From NCBI GenBank assembly GCA_945868505.1, contig CAMBLO010000002.1, positions 82,464 to 146,463 of the forward strand: a stretch of DNA of 64,000 bases. Direction: 5' to 3'. The position numbers were made by a program, and so were the translations under genes. Origin of the DNA: an uncultured Clostridia bacterium. Lineage in GTDB: Bacteria > Bacillota > Clostridia > Lachnospirales > Anaerotignaceae. The notes under the pieces were generated by a model. It was not told the origin of the DNA. It worked only from the letters and a program-made list of their open reading frames with translations, and did not search any database. Positions 59,564 through 64,000 of this stretch are shown here, one piece after another; within the stretch, counting starts at the first letter, position 1, and the number at the start of each line of letters is the position of its first letter.

Positions 59564-60946
59564 ATGACAGCAACTGAAAATCGTGGTCAATTTGGTTCCA
59601 AGCTAGGCTTTATCCTGTCTGCAGCTGGTTCTGCTGTAGGTCTGGGTAACATCTGGAAGTTCCCCGGCAAAGCTTACAACTGCGGCGGCGGCGCTTTCCT
59701 GATCGTTTACATCCTGATGGTTGCCATTATCGGTACAACTGTTATGATGGCCGAATTCACAGTTGGTCGTAAAACACACAAAAACGCCATCGGTGCTTTC
59801 CGTGAGATCAACGAAAAATGGGCCTTTGCAGGTGGTCTGGGTGTCCTGACCGGTTTCATCATCCTGTGCTACTATTGCCAGGTTGGTGGTTGGACAATGA
59901 AATACATCTATGCTTACATCGTAGAAGCAAAGACTGTATATGCTGACCCTATGGCTTACTTCTTGGGTATGCTGGGTGCTAATGGCTTCCCTCTGCAGGG
60001 TGCTATTATCTTCCCTCTGATCTTCCTGCTGCTGACATGCTTCATCATCAGCCATGGTACTGCTGGTATTGAAAAAATGTCTAAAGTTCTGATGCCTCTG
60101 CTGTTCGTGCTGCTGATCGGTCTGATGATTCGTTCCTGCACACTGCCCGGCGCTGACGAAGGTCTGAAATACATGCTGCATGTAGACTTCTCTACAATCG
60201 GTACAAACGCAATTCTGGTTGCTCTGGGTCAGGCATTCTTCTCTCTGTCCCTTGGTATGGGCGTAATGGTTACATATGCTTCTTACCTGTCCAGCGAAGA
60301 TAACCTGGTTTCCAATACCGGTATCGTCTGCGTACTGGATACTCTGGTAGCTCTGTTCGCAGGCTTCATGATCATCCCCGCTGTATTCGCTACAGGTATT
60401 GACCCCGGTATGGGCGGCGGCTTCGCATTCGCAACACTGGCAGGCGTATTCCAGGCAATCCCCGGTGGTACACTGTTTGGTCTGCTGTTCTACTTCCTGC
60501 TGTTCTTCGCAGCTGTAACATCCTCCACATCCATTCTGGAAGGTACTGTTGCATTCCTGGTTGAAGAAAAAGGTATCGCAAGAAACAAAGCTCTGGTTGG
60601 TACAGCTGTTATCCTGTTCATCGTTGGTGTATTCTACACACTGTCTCAGGCTTACATGAACATCAAAGGTATCTGGATCTCCAAGAACGGTCTGGAATAC
60701 CCTATCTTCGGCGACTTCCTGGAATACCTGACAGACAGACTGCTGCTGCCTCTGGGCGCATTCTTCTCTGTACTGTTTGTTGGCTGGGTATGGGGTCCCG
60801 ACAACGCTGTGGAAGAAGCTACTTCCAACGGCAAGTACAAATTCGCACTGGGTCCTGTATGGAAAGTTCTGGTTAAATTTGTAGCACCTATCGCTATCAT
60901 CTGTATCATCGTAGCTGGTATGGTATTTGGTATGTCCATTTCCTAA
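59564..60946 (+). CDS. Sodium-dependent transporter, NSS (SLC6) family, copy 1
   Basis: The 460-residue membrane protein matches bacterial NSS amino acid symporters such as MhsT (about 11 helices). It contains the Na+/substrate region in helix 1 (FILSAAGSAVGLGNIWKFPGKAYNCGGGAFL) and the helix 6 unwinding region (ALGQAFFSLSLGMGVMVTYASYL). Likely substrates are small or aromatic amino acids; this cannot be settled by eye. AAGGAGG precedes the ATG. It is almost identical to the gene at 61419; codon use is biased as in highly expressed genes. Confidence 0.94.
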   Translation: MTATENRGQFGSKLGFILSAAGSAVGLGNIWKFPGKAYNCGGGAFLIVYILMVAIIGTTVMMAEFTVGRKTHKNAIGAFREINEKWAFAGGLGVLTGFIILCYYCQVGGWTMKYIYAYIVEAKTVYADPMAYFLGMLGANGFPLQGAIIFPLIFLLLTCFIISHGTAGIEKMSKVLMPLLFVLLIGLMIRSCTLPGADEGLKYMLHVDFSTIGTNAILVALGQAFFSLSLGMGVMVTYASYLSSEDNLVSNTGIVCVLDTLVALFAGFMIIPAVFATGIDPGMGGGFAFATLAGVFQAIPGGTLFGLLFYFLLFFAAVTSSTSILEGTVAFLVEEKGIARNKALVGTAVILFIVGVFYTLSQAYMNIKGIWISKNGLEYPIFGDFLEYLTDRLLLPLGAFFSVLFVGWVWGPDNAVEEATSNGKYKFALGPVWKVLVKFVAPIAIICIIVAGMVFGMSIS

Positions 60947-61418
60947 TCGAGAACAGTTTCTTAACAAGAGATCAAAAGCATATCTTTGCATAAGAGATCG
61001 TGCAACAAGGTCGGAGGCTCCCCCTCCGACCTTCTTTTTTTCCCATTCCTTTGGCATTTTTCCACTTTGAAATGCCAATTTTTTATTGTTTTTTTATTCA
61101 TGCCATACAATCGATCCACATATTTTTCCTTTGTGTTAAGAGAAACAATCCTAAATCTTAACGGGATTTTTATAGATATTTACATGGTTTTACGCTATCC
61201 TTATTTTAGGATATATATGGAAATTATTGGAAGCTCATACAAATTCTTCTTATTTTGGGGTGAAATATCCATTAGACGTCAGACAAACTGCAGGAGGGAA
61301 CAGTTTTGTGTGCCGCAAGAAGAAGGCAATCATTATTCCACATATCCTTCCAATTTTTCCTATCCTCGGAAACAATCAGATTTCCGTCTTATTGTTCTTT
61401 TGTAAAGGAGGTATACTT
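60947..61418. other. Spacer between the twin NSS transporter genes
   Basis: It contains the terminator of copy 1 (61007-61041), then an AT-rich region and a probable leader of copy 2 (ribosome-site-like GCAGGAGGG at about 61289, far from the true start). No gene. The plus ORF 60986-61405 has no ribosome site. The spacer differs from the region upstream of copy 1, so only the coding part was duplicated or homogenised. Confidence 0.55.
61007..61041 (+). terminator. Terminator after NSS copy 1
   Basis: AAGGTCGGAGG/CCTCCGACCTT stem followed by CTTTTTTT. Confidence 0.92.
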
Positions 61419-62801
61419 ATGTCTACAACTGAAAATCGTGTTGAGTTTGGTTCCAAGCTAGGCTTTATCCTGTCTGCTGCCGGTTCTGCAGTTGGTCTGG
61501 GTAACATCTGGAAATTCCCCGGCAAAGCTTACAACTGCGGCGGCGGCGCTTTCCTGATCGTTTACATCCTGATGGTTGCCATTATCGGTACAACTGTTAT
61601 GATGGCCGAATTCACAGTTGGTCGTAAAACACACAAAAACGCCATCGGTGCTTTCCGTGAGATCAACGAAAAATGGGCCTTTGCAGGTGGTCTGGGTGTC
61701 CTGACCGGTTTCATCATCCTGTGCTACTATTGCCAGGTTGGTGGTTGGACAATGAAATACATCTATGCTTACATCGTGGAAGCAAAGACTGTATATGCTG
61801 ACCCCATGGCTTACTTCCTTGGCATGCTGGGTGCTAATGGCTTCCCTCTGCAGGGCGCTATTATCTTCCCTCTGATCTTCCTGTTCCTGACAGCTTTCAT
61901 CATCAGCCACGGTACTGCTGGTATTGAAAAAATGTCTAAGGTTCTGATGCCTCTGCTGTTTGTGCTGCTGATTGGTCTGATGATCCGTTCCTGCACACTG
62001 CCCGGTGCTGACGAAGGTCTGAAATACATGCTGCATGTAGATTTCTCTACGATCGGTACAAATGCAATTCTGGTTGCTTTGGGTCAGGCGTTCTTCTCCC
62101 TGTCCCTTGGTATGGGCGTAATGGTAACATACGCTTCCTATCTGTCCAGCGAAGATAACCTGGTTTCCAATACCGGTATCGTCTGCGTACTGGATACTCT
62201 GGTAGCTCTGTTCGCAGGCTTCATGATCATCCCCGCTGTATTCGCTACAGGTATTGACCCCGGTATGGGCGGCGGCTTCGCATTCGCAACACTGGCAGGC
62301 GTATTCCAGTCTATCCCCGGCGGTACACTGTTTGGTCTGCTGTTCTACTTCCTGCTGTTCTTCGCAGCGGTAACCTCTTCCACATCCATTCTGGAAGGTA
62401 CGATTGCATTCCTGGTTGAAGAAAAGGGCTTCGAAAGAAAGAAAGCCTTGGTGGGTACATCCATCATCCTCTTCATCATTGGTGTATTCTACACATTGTC
62501 TCAGGCTTACATGAACATCAAAGGTATCTGGATCTCCAAAGACGGGCTCATGTATCCTATCTTCGGCGACTTCTTGGAATACCTGACAGACAGACTGCTG
62601 CTGCCTCTGGGCGCATTCTTCTCTGTACTGTTTGTTGGCTGGGTATGGGGTCCCGACAATGCCATCGAAGAAGCTACTTCCAACGGCAAGTATAAATTCA
62701 GCCTTGCCCCTGTATGGAAGGTACTGGTGAAATACATTGCGCCTATCGCTATCATCTGTATCATCGTAGCCGGTATGGTATTCGGTATGGCTATTTCCTA
62801 A
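61419..62801 (+). CDS. Sodium-dependent transporter, NSS (SLC6) family, copy 2
   Basis: ATG 61419 follows AAAGGAGG; the ORF track start is 64 codons too early. The 460-residue product differs from copy 1 at about 22 positions (my count), mostly near the start (STTENRVEF against TATENRGQF), around KGFERKK/KGIARNK and in the last 60 residues. A central block of more than 200 nt is identical even at silent sites, which indicates recent duplication or gene conversion. It is separated by a terminator, so the copies may be expressed independently. Confidence 0.94.
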   Translation: MSTTENRVEFGSKLGFILSAAGSAVGLGNIWKFPGKAYNCGGGAFLIVYILMVAIIGTTVMMAEFTVGRKTHKNAIGAFREINEKWAFAGGLGVLTGFIILCYYCQVGGWTMKYIYAYIVEAKTVYADPMAYFLGMLGANGFPLQGAIIFPLIFLFLTAFIISHGTAGIEKMSKVLMPLLFVLLIGLMIRSCTLPGADEGLKYMLHVDFSTIGTNAILVALGQAFFSLSLGMGVMVTYASYLSSEDNLVSNTGIVCVLDTLVALFAGFMIIPAVFATGIDPGMGGGFAFATLAGVFQSIPGGTLFGLLFYFLLFFAAVTSSTSILEGTIAFLVEEKGFERKKALVGTSIILFIIGVFYTLSQAYMNIKGIWISKDGLMYPIFGDFLEYLTDRLLLPLGAFFSVLFVGWVWGPDNAIEEATSNGKYKFSLAPVWKVLVKYIAPIAIICIIVAGMVFGMAIS

Positions 62802-63044: not shown

Positions 63045-63338
63045 ATGAAAGAAATGTGCAGAAACTTCGTCTGCAATACAGGCAGATGCCCGCAGCAGTC
63101 TGCCAATACACAACGTTCCATGCCCTCTGCAGCGGCAAACAACGCCGCCGCCATCCCCAATCCATGCAACGCCTGCGTCATCGAACGGGTCGGTCTGGCA
63201 CAGGCGATGGTCCCCTTCCAGCCCTATGAAGCACCTATGGAACAGGAACAGAGCCTGGTCTGCGGCACTGCCTTTGCCGATCTGGCGATGCCCTATTGCT
63301 CCGGCTGGAATCTTTATCGTTTTAGAAGGGAGGATTGA
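63045..63338 (+). CDS. cotJA: Spore coat-associated protein CotJA
   Basis: ATG 63045 follows AAAGGAGG (the ORF track start at 63024 covers that site). The 97-residue product has a Cys/Ala-rich N-terminal part (MCRNFVCNTGRCPQQS) and the CotJA core (VGLAQAMVPFQPYEAPMEQEQSLVCGTAFADLAMPY). It belongs to the cotJABC operon of the spore inner coat. A weak sigma-E/K-like -10 (CATAGAAT, 63005) precedes it, but the -35 is unclear. The cysteine-rich N-terminus is longer than in Bacillus. Confidence 0.93.
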   Translation: MKEMCRNFVCNTGRCPQQSANTQRSMPSAAANNAAAIPNPCNACVIERVGLAQAMVPFQPYEAPMEQEQSLVCGTAFADLAMPYCSGWNLYRFRRED

Positions 63339-63340
63339 AC

Positions 63341-63625
63341 ATGGATCGCGATGAACTGCTGAAAACATTGACCGAACTGGATTTTATCGCCGTAGACCTG
63401 GGTCTGTTCCTGAATACGCACCCCGACAATATGGAAGCCATCATGGCTTATAATCAGGTTATCACCGCCGCCGATGCCGTTCGCATGAAATACGAAGAAG
63501 CTTTTGGCCCCCTGTGTTCTTTCCGCAGCTATGCTTCCAATACCCAGGATTGGCAGTGGAAAGACAATCCTTGGCCTTGGCAGACCGATGCGAATTTTTC
63601 TCTTGCCGGAAAGGAGTGTAGATAA
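63341..63625 (+). CDS. cotJB: Spore coat protein CotJB
   Basis: ATG 63341, after GGGAGG, gives 94 residues. Family motifs are DRDELLKTLTELDFIAVDLGLFLNTHPDNMEAI and YEEAFGPLCSFRSYASNTQDWQWKDNPWPW. It starts 2 nt after the cotJA stop, and its stop directly abuts the cotJC ATG. Confidence 0.95.
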   Translation: MDRDELLKTLTELDFIAVDLGLFLNTHPDNMEAIMAYNQVITAADAVRMKYEEAFGPLCSFRSYASNTQDWQWKDNPWPWQTDANFSLAGKECR

Positions 63626-63739
63626 ATGTGGATCTATGAAAAAAAATTGGAATTTCCTGTGAAAATCACACAACCCGATGCTCGTCTGGCAAAGATCATG
63701 ATTGAGCAATACGGTGGTGCTTATTACATTATGGTATAG
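63626..63739 (+). pseudogene. cotJC: Interrupted CotJC (N-terminal fragment)
   Basis: The 37-residue frame begins exactly like the manganese catalase-like coat protein CotJC: MWIYEKKLEFPVKITQPDAR, then LAKIMIEQYGG. In intact proteins the next residues are xDGELAAALRY, with about 155 more to the C-terminus. Here the sequence changes after GGTGGTGC to unrelated DNA, adding AYYIMV and a stop. AAGGAG precedes the ATG, so the start of the gene is still functional. No CotJC remainder is seen in the last 260 nt in any frame. Either an element is inserted in the gene or the 3' part is lost. Confidence 0.9.
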
Positions 63740-64000
63740 CAACAACCCTTGTTGTGCGTCTATCCGTTTTATCCAAAAGAATTGATAGATACATAACAGG
63801 AGGTAACAACATGAAGAAAATCGCGGGTTTATATCAAAGCTATCTCAGAGAAAGAGAAGAAGAATTCAAAGAATATTGCACAGGAGGAGATAAATTGAAA
63901 GAATTACAGGAATTTTTAAAAATTAAACTAAACGCTGATGATTATTTCACAGCAGAAGAAATGCTGAATGATCTGATTGTGGAAATCGAAGAGAAAGGCT
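63740..64000 (+). other. Foreign DNA following the cotJC break (left end of a possible inserted element)
   Basis: Directly after the break there is a small inverted repeat (CAACAA-CCC-TTGTTG, 63740-63754), then an AT-richer stretch leading to a new ORF. An attachment site of a serine or tyrosine recombinase would be expected near 63715-63760. The rest of the element is outside the window. Confidence 0.6.
63811..64000 (+). CDS. Unknown small acidic protein, first gene of the inserted DNA (partial)
   Basis: ATG 63811 has a strong AGGAGG site and opens a frame of at least 63 codons to the window edge. It is acidic and helical (MKKIAGLYQSYLREREEEFK, ELQEFLKIKLNADDYFTAEE, ILNDLIVEIEEKG-like end). 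No family recognised; it resembles small phage or plasmid proteins in composition. No recombinase is visible yet. Confidence 0.55.
   Translation, partial: MKKIAGLYQSYLREREEEFKEYCTGGDKLKELQEFLKIKLNADDYFTAEEMLNDLIVEIEEKG

Follow-up and report, generated by a model that had tools for sequence, protein, structure and literature searches.

Three site-specific elements, with one large serine recombinase apiece, split the sporulation gene cotJC of an Anaerotignaceae bacterium: a probable skin-like system

The question raised by the end of the window, i.e., the whole 64,000-nucleotide stretch analysed here from contig C2 of an uncultured Anaerotignaceae bacterium, is why the cotJC gene breaks off after about 32 codons, directly behind an intact cotJA and cotJB. 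The first-pass annotation had reported this interruption, and it is real: the break comes after an in-frame cotJA, an in-frame cotJB and 31-32 in-frame codons of cotJC (Table 1; the start codon of cotJA was picked from the sequence, downstream of AAAGGAGG). The cotJC frame is family-like up to MIEQYGG, the match to CotJC ends after GGTGGTGC (63713-63720), and the stop codon of the interrupted frame lies at 63737-63739, 19 bp past GGTGGTGC. The window cannot show the rest of the gene, since its end is also the end of C2 (C2:146463), 280 bp after the first piece stops. The genome, designated G000, is a draft of 69 contigs, among them C2, C5, C15, C39 and C59, and contig ends were traced via shared 55-mers; the last 55 bp of C2 are the end of C59, a small phage-like contig. 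As a separate observation, the region 59603-62801 of the window looks like a tandem transporter gene pair: its plus strand at 61227-62801 reads as a sodium-dependent transporter-like protein, and minus-strand open frames of 460 and 491 aa overlap the two similar stretches.

The remainder of cotJC was found outside the window. A whole-genome search for the Mn-catalase family gave matches in four places, and neither an intact Mn-catalase gene nor a further cotJC copy was detected in the rest of G000. The missing 3' parts, which the first-pass annotation had proposed to look for, are thus represented by three further in-frame pieces, two on C15 and one on C5. The gene consists of four pieces on three contigs, which encode amino acids 1-32, 33-65, 65-135 and 135-200, and when fused at their shared cores these give a single 200-aa frame with zero stops. 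The intact cotJC of the congener G002 is colinear with the four pieces and overlaps them by 8, 3 and 9 bp at the joints, so that recombination at the short shared cores would restore the frame exactly. In the congener G005, the DNA 5' of cotJC matches the window and the DNA 3' of it matches C5; therefore, C2 and C5 represent the native flanks of the gene. The insertions are accordingly placed within the coding region of a sporulation gene, in its cotJA-cotJB context.

Table 1. Location of the cotJ genes, the cotJC pieces, the att sequences and the three elements in G000 (positions without a contig name are those of the window)
Feature	Location	Strand	Description and evidence
cotJA	63045-63338	+	intact, first gene of the cotJ operon; open reading frame and Pfam PF11007, 4.2e-10
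cotJB	63341-63625	+	intact; open reading frame and Pfam PF12652, 3.8e-25
cotJC piece 1 of 4	63626-63720	+	codons 1-31 and part of 32; Mn-catalase profile (Pfam PF05067) positions 1-32, 3.7e-8
att core of site 1, attL half	63713-63720	+	GGTGGTGC; the intact gene of G002 overlaps by 8 bp here
attP arm, site 1	63727-63739	+	CATTATGGTATAG
Element 1, left end	63721-64000	+	phage-like; C2 ends at 64000 and the path enters C59
Element 1, far end	C15:52560-55592		carries LSR_1 (486 aa)
cotJC piece 2	C15:52446-52559	-	outside the window; Mn-catalase profile positions 28-66
Element 2	C15, between pieces 2 and 3		42.6 kb; the LSR_2 gene (527 aa) stops about 35 bp short of piece 3
cotJC piece 3	C15:9554-9790	-	outside the window; Mn-catalase profile positions 61-152
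Element 3	between C15:9554 and C5:99129		LSR_3 (516 aa) at C15:6157-7707
cotJC piece 4	C5:98925-99128	-	outside the window; Mn-catalase profile positions 148-197, matched at C5:98976-99125

The DNA that separates the pieces has the properties of site-specific elements. Large serine recombinases (LSRs) were found at the far junctions, as had been anticipated, and all three (LSR_1, LSR_2 and LSR_3) carry the Resolvase, Recombinase and Zn-ribbon domains (Pfam). Each lies near an end of its element: the LSR_1 gene ends about 10-16 bp from the piece 2 junction, LSR_2 lies 35 bp from an end, and LSR_3 sits 1.8 kb inside element 3 in G000 and 73 bp from the junction in G005. The LSR_3 family carries DUF4368, a domain that is commoner in multi-targeting LSRs (PMC10083194). 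This domain and the inward position of LSR_3 in G000 weigh against the reading favoured below. The bases of the site-1 core GGTGGTGC also start piece 2 on C15, as GGGGGTGC. On the same contig, the attR end of element 1 carries CTATACCATAATG, which matches the arm CATTATGGTATAG exactly in inverted orientation (13/13 bp). The att arms of site 2 form the inverted repeat AGTACGTTAACCTTATCAAT, with 19/20 bp paired. The CAACAA/TTGTTG repeat, which had earlier been pointed out at the junction, was set aside as an att repeat and is not relevant, the att arms being located elsewhere. The att sites are directly oriented for deletion, pieces 2 and 3 occupying one strand of C15, and same-strand pieces were also observed in G005, G013, G019, G021, G024 and G026. 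The proposal of a skin-like element in cotJC was therefore supported and withstood the attempts to refute it, but not in its form of a single element, as the genome has three.

The three elements differ in content. Element 2 is an apparently complete prophage, with PHROGs matches to terminase, portal, major head/capsid, holin, endolysin, DnaB helicase, SSB and repressor genes, and the C59 part of the element 1 path contains antirepressor and endolysin genes. Elements 1 and 3 are broken by assembly gaps in G000, and their linkage is proposed from att arms that match, from the gene order in G005 and from the closed genomes of relatives. Element 3 also contains an AraC regulator and an aspartokinase-like protein of 246 aa without the C-terminal region (G000:C15:8737-9477), and the same truncated protein occurs in G005 (L094:3925-4839). 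A chromosomal rearrangement at this truncated gene was considered and rejected, since it is element cargo shared by G005 and G000 and an intact aspartokinase is present at C5:58982-60178.

The points of insertion are related to the active site of the enzyme. In an alignment to solved Mn catalases (1jku and others), residues E35, E65, H68, E135 and H168 of CotJC fall on conserved positions, which we take to be the manganese ligands of the family. Site 1 lies three codons before E35, site 2 in the E65 codon, and site 3 corresponds to codons 133-135. Since the sites fall at or near codons for metal-ligand glutamates, the integrases target those parts of the gene whose DNA is most conserved. Moreover, an LSR gene end adjoins a cotJC junction at about 55 loci, and in a tree of 47 of these recombinases the site labels require 5 changes, with a minimum of 4, whereas shuffled labels required 19.5 on average and none of 200 shuffles was as low. 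The site-3 recombinases form a single group with full support. The LSR clade thus predicts the insertion site in cotJC. Four phage contigs of IMG/VR (L261, L215, L258 and L201) have an LSR_2-type integrase and no cotJC alongside; just behind the integrase, each carries a perfect or near-perfect palindrome of 18-22 bp with a GACGAA-type centre. As the palindromic attP is seen there without adjoining cotJC, LSR_2-type phages exist with an unsplit attP. A palindromic attP may likewise be proposed for elements 1 and 2 of G000, judging from the pairing of their arms (13/13 and 19/20 bp). LSR_1-type recombinases also occur just beyond the 3' end of cotJC, off the junction (L357 and L358, in G057 and G056).

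Selection on the split gene was assessed as dN/dS on the joined cotJC codons, with the junction codons excluded. Between G000 and G005, dN was 0.003 and dS 0.44 (dN/dS about 0.007), between G019 and G021 dN/dS was 0.035, and values among closely related split genes ranged from 0.007 to 0.05. The medians were 0.036 for split-split, 0.067 for split-intact and 0.087 for intact-intact pairs. The elements in these pairs are themselves orthologous: the site-3 elements of G000 and G005 share the AraC and kinase cargo with 86.5% nucleotide identity over 1787 bp, and the site-1 elements of G019 and G021 have most of the 4-5 kb element in common. The LSRs are also under purifying selection (dN/dS 0.08-0.13, where computable). 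The sharing of orthologous elements, together with the very low dN/dS, indicates that cotJC has been selected while interrupted; therefore, it must be rebuilt often, and the host gene has been functional over evolutionary time. From how strictly the pieces are conserved among relatives it follows, as far as sequence comparison can tell, that the elements must be taken out and the gene restored. The timing of this removal is most likely that of the sporulating mother cell.

We consider it highly probable that cotJC carries three independent site-specific elements, each with its own LSR, which are deleted in the mother cell so that CotJC is restored. Each LSR would recognise one short target in cotJC, next to or in the codons for E35, E65 and E135; acting with a directionality factor on an attL and an attR in direct orientation, it would delete its own element. 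All three deletions would take place in the mother cell, where the loss would be harmless because its genome is discarded anyway, and full CotJC would be made after all three. The region upstream of LSR_1 is consistent with such timing. In G000, G019, G021 and G026, a conserved hairpin (AAGACC...GGTCTT) that would enclose the ribosome site precedes the recombinase gene; its stems vary in sequence and still pair (z-scores -4.5, -2.3, -7.2 and -4.2, respectively). The loop contains CATACA or TATACA, with ATA 16 bp before, a motif that was compared with the sigma-E promoter consensus. In these four related genes the loop motif resembles a sigma-E promoter, and the suggestion is that only RNA started in the loop would be translatable. 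The combination of the hairpin and the sigma-E-like ATA-N16-CATACA suggests that expression of the LSR_1 family may be limited to the mother cell. A sporulation promoter or hairpin feature was also sought upstream of LSR_2 and LSR_3 and was not found there.

Another sporulation gene of G000 is interrupted in a comparable way. The spoIVA gene is intact, and sigK is broken: C39:3332-3928(-) (L362) reads as SigK to LTQQEIAERLGISRSYV and then stops. The break follows LGISRSYV, near the C-terminus, and a gene for a 559-aa large serine recombinase ends about 80 bp away, which points to a putative skin-like element at a C-terminal position. If so, excision in the mother cell is probably already a part of sporulation in G000.

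The same observations may be read differently. The gene could simply offer temperate phages and similar elements a safe place to integrate; they would excise only on prophage induction and not under sporulation control, CotJC being lost or dispensable in lysogens. The apparently complete prophage at site 2 and the existence of attP-bearing phage contigs would agree with this, and loss or mutation of a CotJC-type protein has been described with little effect on the coat (PMC12122855; PMC11222575). However, orthologous, small and partly non-phage elements persist across species under strong purifying selection on cotJC. A dispensable gene that was split before the species separated would drift; therefore, the observed constraint counts against this explanation, which we regard as improbable. 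Plain degradation, the alternative named in the first-pass annotation, is still less favoured. It would make cotJC a pseudogene broken by insertions, which could be reconciled with CotJC being non-essential in model species (PMC12122855; PMC11222575) and with the stop within the aligned codons of the split gene of G039. Against it, the pieces are without stop or frameshift in 12 of the 13 split genomes examined, dN/dS is far below 1, the cores at the three sites are exact and in frame, and the recombinases are conserved and the sites reused by matching recombinase clades. Decay is thus largely refuted and very unlikely to account for the locus.

The split gene is not peculiar to G000. Among 58 genomes of the family, which is taken to be Anaerotignaceae, about 25 are split at at least one of the three sites, 23 have an intact cotJC, and the rest are without the gene or unclear (these counts, like those by site, were read by eye from a table). 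The uninterrupted sites are present in the relatives with an intact gene. The number of breaks varies: G007 has all three, G013 two of them (sites 1 and 3), and G005 the one at site 3 only. Of the 71 internal fragment ends, 63 fall no more than 6 codons from one of the three sites, where about 21% would be expected, the ends being typed by hand and non-independent through shared descent. Among 393 sampled Lachnospirales genomes, further split genes occur in several other families, and IMG/VR contigs share the same junctions; in L232, L242 and L283-L285, amino acids 61-136 of CotJC are found between LSR_2 and LSR_3. An assembly artefact or chimera could have been suspected in a draft of 69 contigs with piece 1 ending 280 bp from a contig end. 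Pieces 2 and 3 are, however, ordered on one 55.6-kb contig, the same structure recurs in other assemblies and independent IMG/VR contigs, and the single-contig closed chromosomes G021, G026, G264 and G347, with pieces ordered on one strand, refute this explanation. Separate expression of the pieces as a split protein, or their joining at the RNA level, is scarcely credible: the spread of active-site residues over all pieces speaks for it, but at the junctions none of pieces 2-4 has its own start codon or ribosome site, phage DNA of 43 kb stands between two of them, and the associated enzymes are DNA recombinases, not components of introns or inteins.

Several variations on this arrangement were also noted. 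Additional breakpoints occur in another family of the order (G220, G103, G135, G158 and G204), near amino acids 98-100 in the closed genome G220 (C1:80770-81069 and 95137-95427; L321) and near amino acids 128-130, in G204 with an LSR_2-type recombinase. In G129:C3:116130-134009, G198:C70:32458-37332 and G167:C68, several additional cotJC 3' parts (amino acids 98-194 or 59-197) follow one another; they may be replacement ends borne by elements or tandem elements. A nuclease pair judged by eye to be SbcD-SbcC-like lies beside the recombinase at site 3 of G007 and at site 2 of G027 and G029 (L095, L105 and L106).

These data are best read as a skin-like system in which a single gene holds three elements. 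Like skin in sigK of B. subtilis and C. difficile, the cotJC elements carry a serine recombinase, have a short core repeat and reside in a mother-cell gene, and their excision, which restores the frame in skin, would do so here; they differ in the target, which is cotJC rather than sigK, and in their number. SP-beta in spsM is likewise an LSR prophage inside a spore-envelope gene, but it is single and in another gene, and its excision and the SprB directionality factor were determined experimentally, whereas excision from cotJC is inferred (PMC4191935). The gin element in gerE of Bacillus cereus is non-phage, uses serine recombinases and resembles the small cargo elements of G005, G019 and G021; gin, however, has three recombinases in one element, whereas cotJC has three elements with one recombinase each at three sites (PMC5595907). 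The yin element in yabG of Clostridium botulinum, whose integrated and circular forms coexist, is also prophage-like and in a clostridial sporulation gene, but it is a single element in a different gene (PMC10747680). Spore genes thus had one element each in spsM (PMC4191935), gerE (PMC5595907) and yabG (PMC10747680). In cyanobacteria, the heterocyst interruption elements are similarly excised from genes that only a terminal cell type requires, but the lineage, genes and cell type are others (PMC4874684). The phage phi027 of C. difficile lies next to cotG, a CotJC homologue; it adjoins this gene without interrupting it and was therefore rejected as a precedent (PMC11222575; PMC12122855). No mention of cotJ was found in PMC5595907 or PMC10747680, and cotJC is not named as an LSR target in the main text of PMC10083194. 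A literature search on cotJC with excision, prophage or integrase, and on sporulation genes with multiple elements, found no description of such a system; it covered few subscription papers or preprints, and novelty is unproven.

Summarizing, a broader interpretation is more plausible than its opposite, with less assurance than the reading of G000 itself: throughout Lachnospirales, cotJC may be a conserved hub for integration at several sites. Up to three unrelated recombinase clades would each have a site of their own at a metal-glutamate codon, and the enzyme would be made only after three excisions in one and the same mother cell. The elements would have been repeatedly domesticated, with host-like cargo (SbcCD, AraC regulator), and a hairpin that keeps read-through transcripts from being translated would confine the recombinase to the mother cell. 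In a large order of gut bacteria, one gene of 600 bp has been hit again and again at three or more exact points, and each point is matched to its own recombinase clade. Dozens of recombinases thereby become available together with their natural pairs of att sites, and it is a warning that cotJC will seem absent or broken in many draft genomes. The system also lends itself to testing how the excisions are coordinated, why phages settle in mother-cell genes, and whether the elements persist for the reason that excising themselves from a dying cell does no harm.
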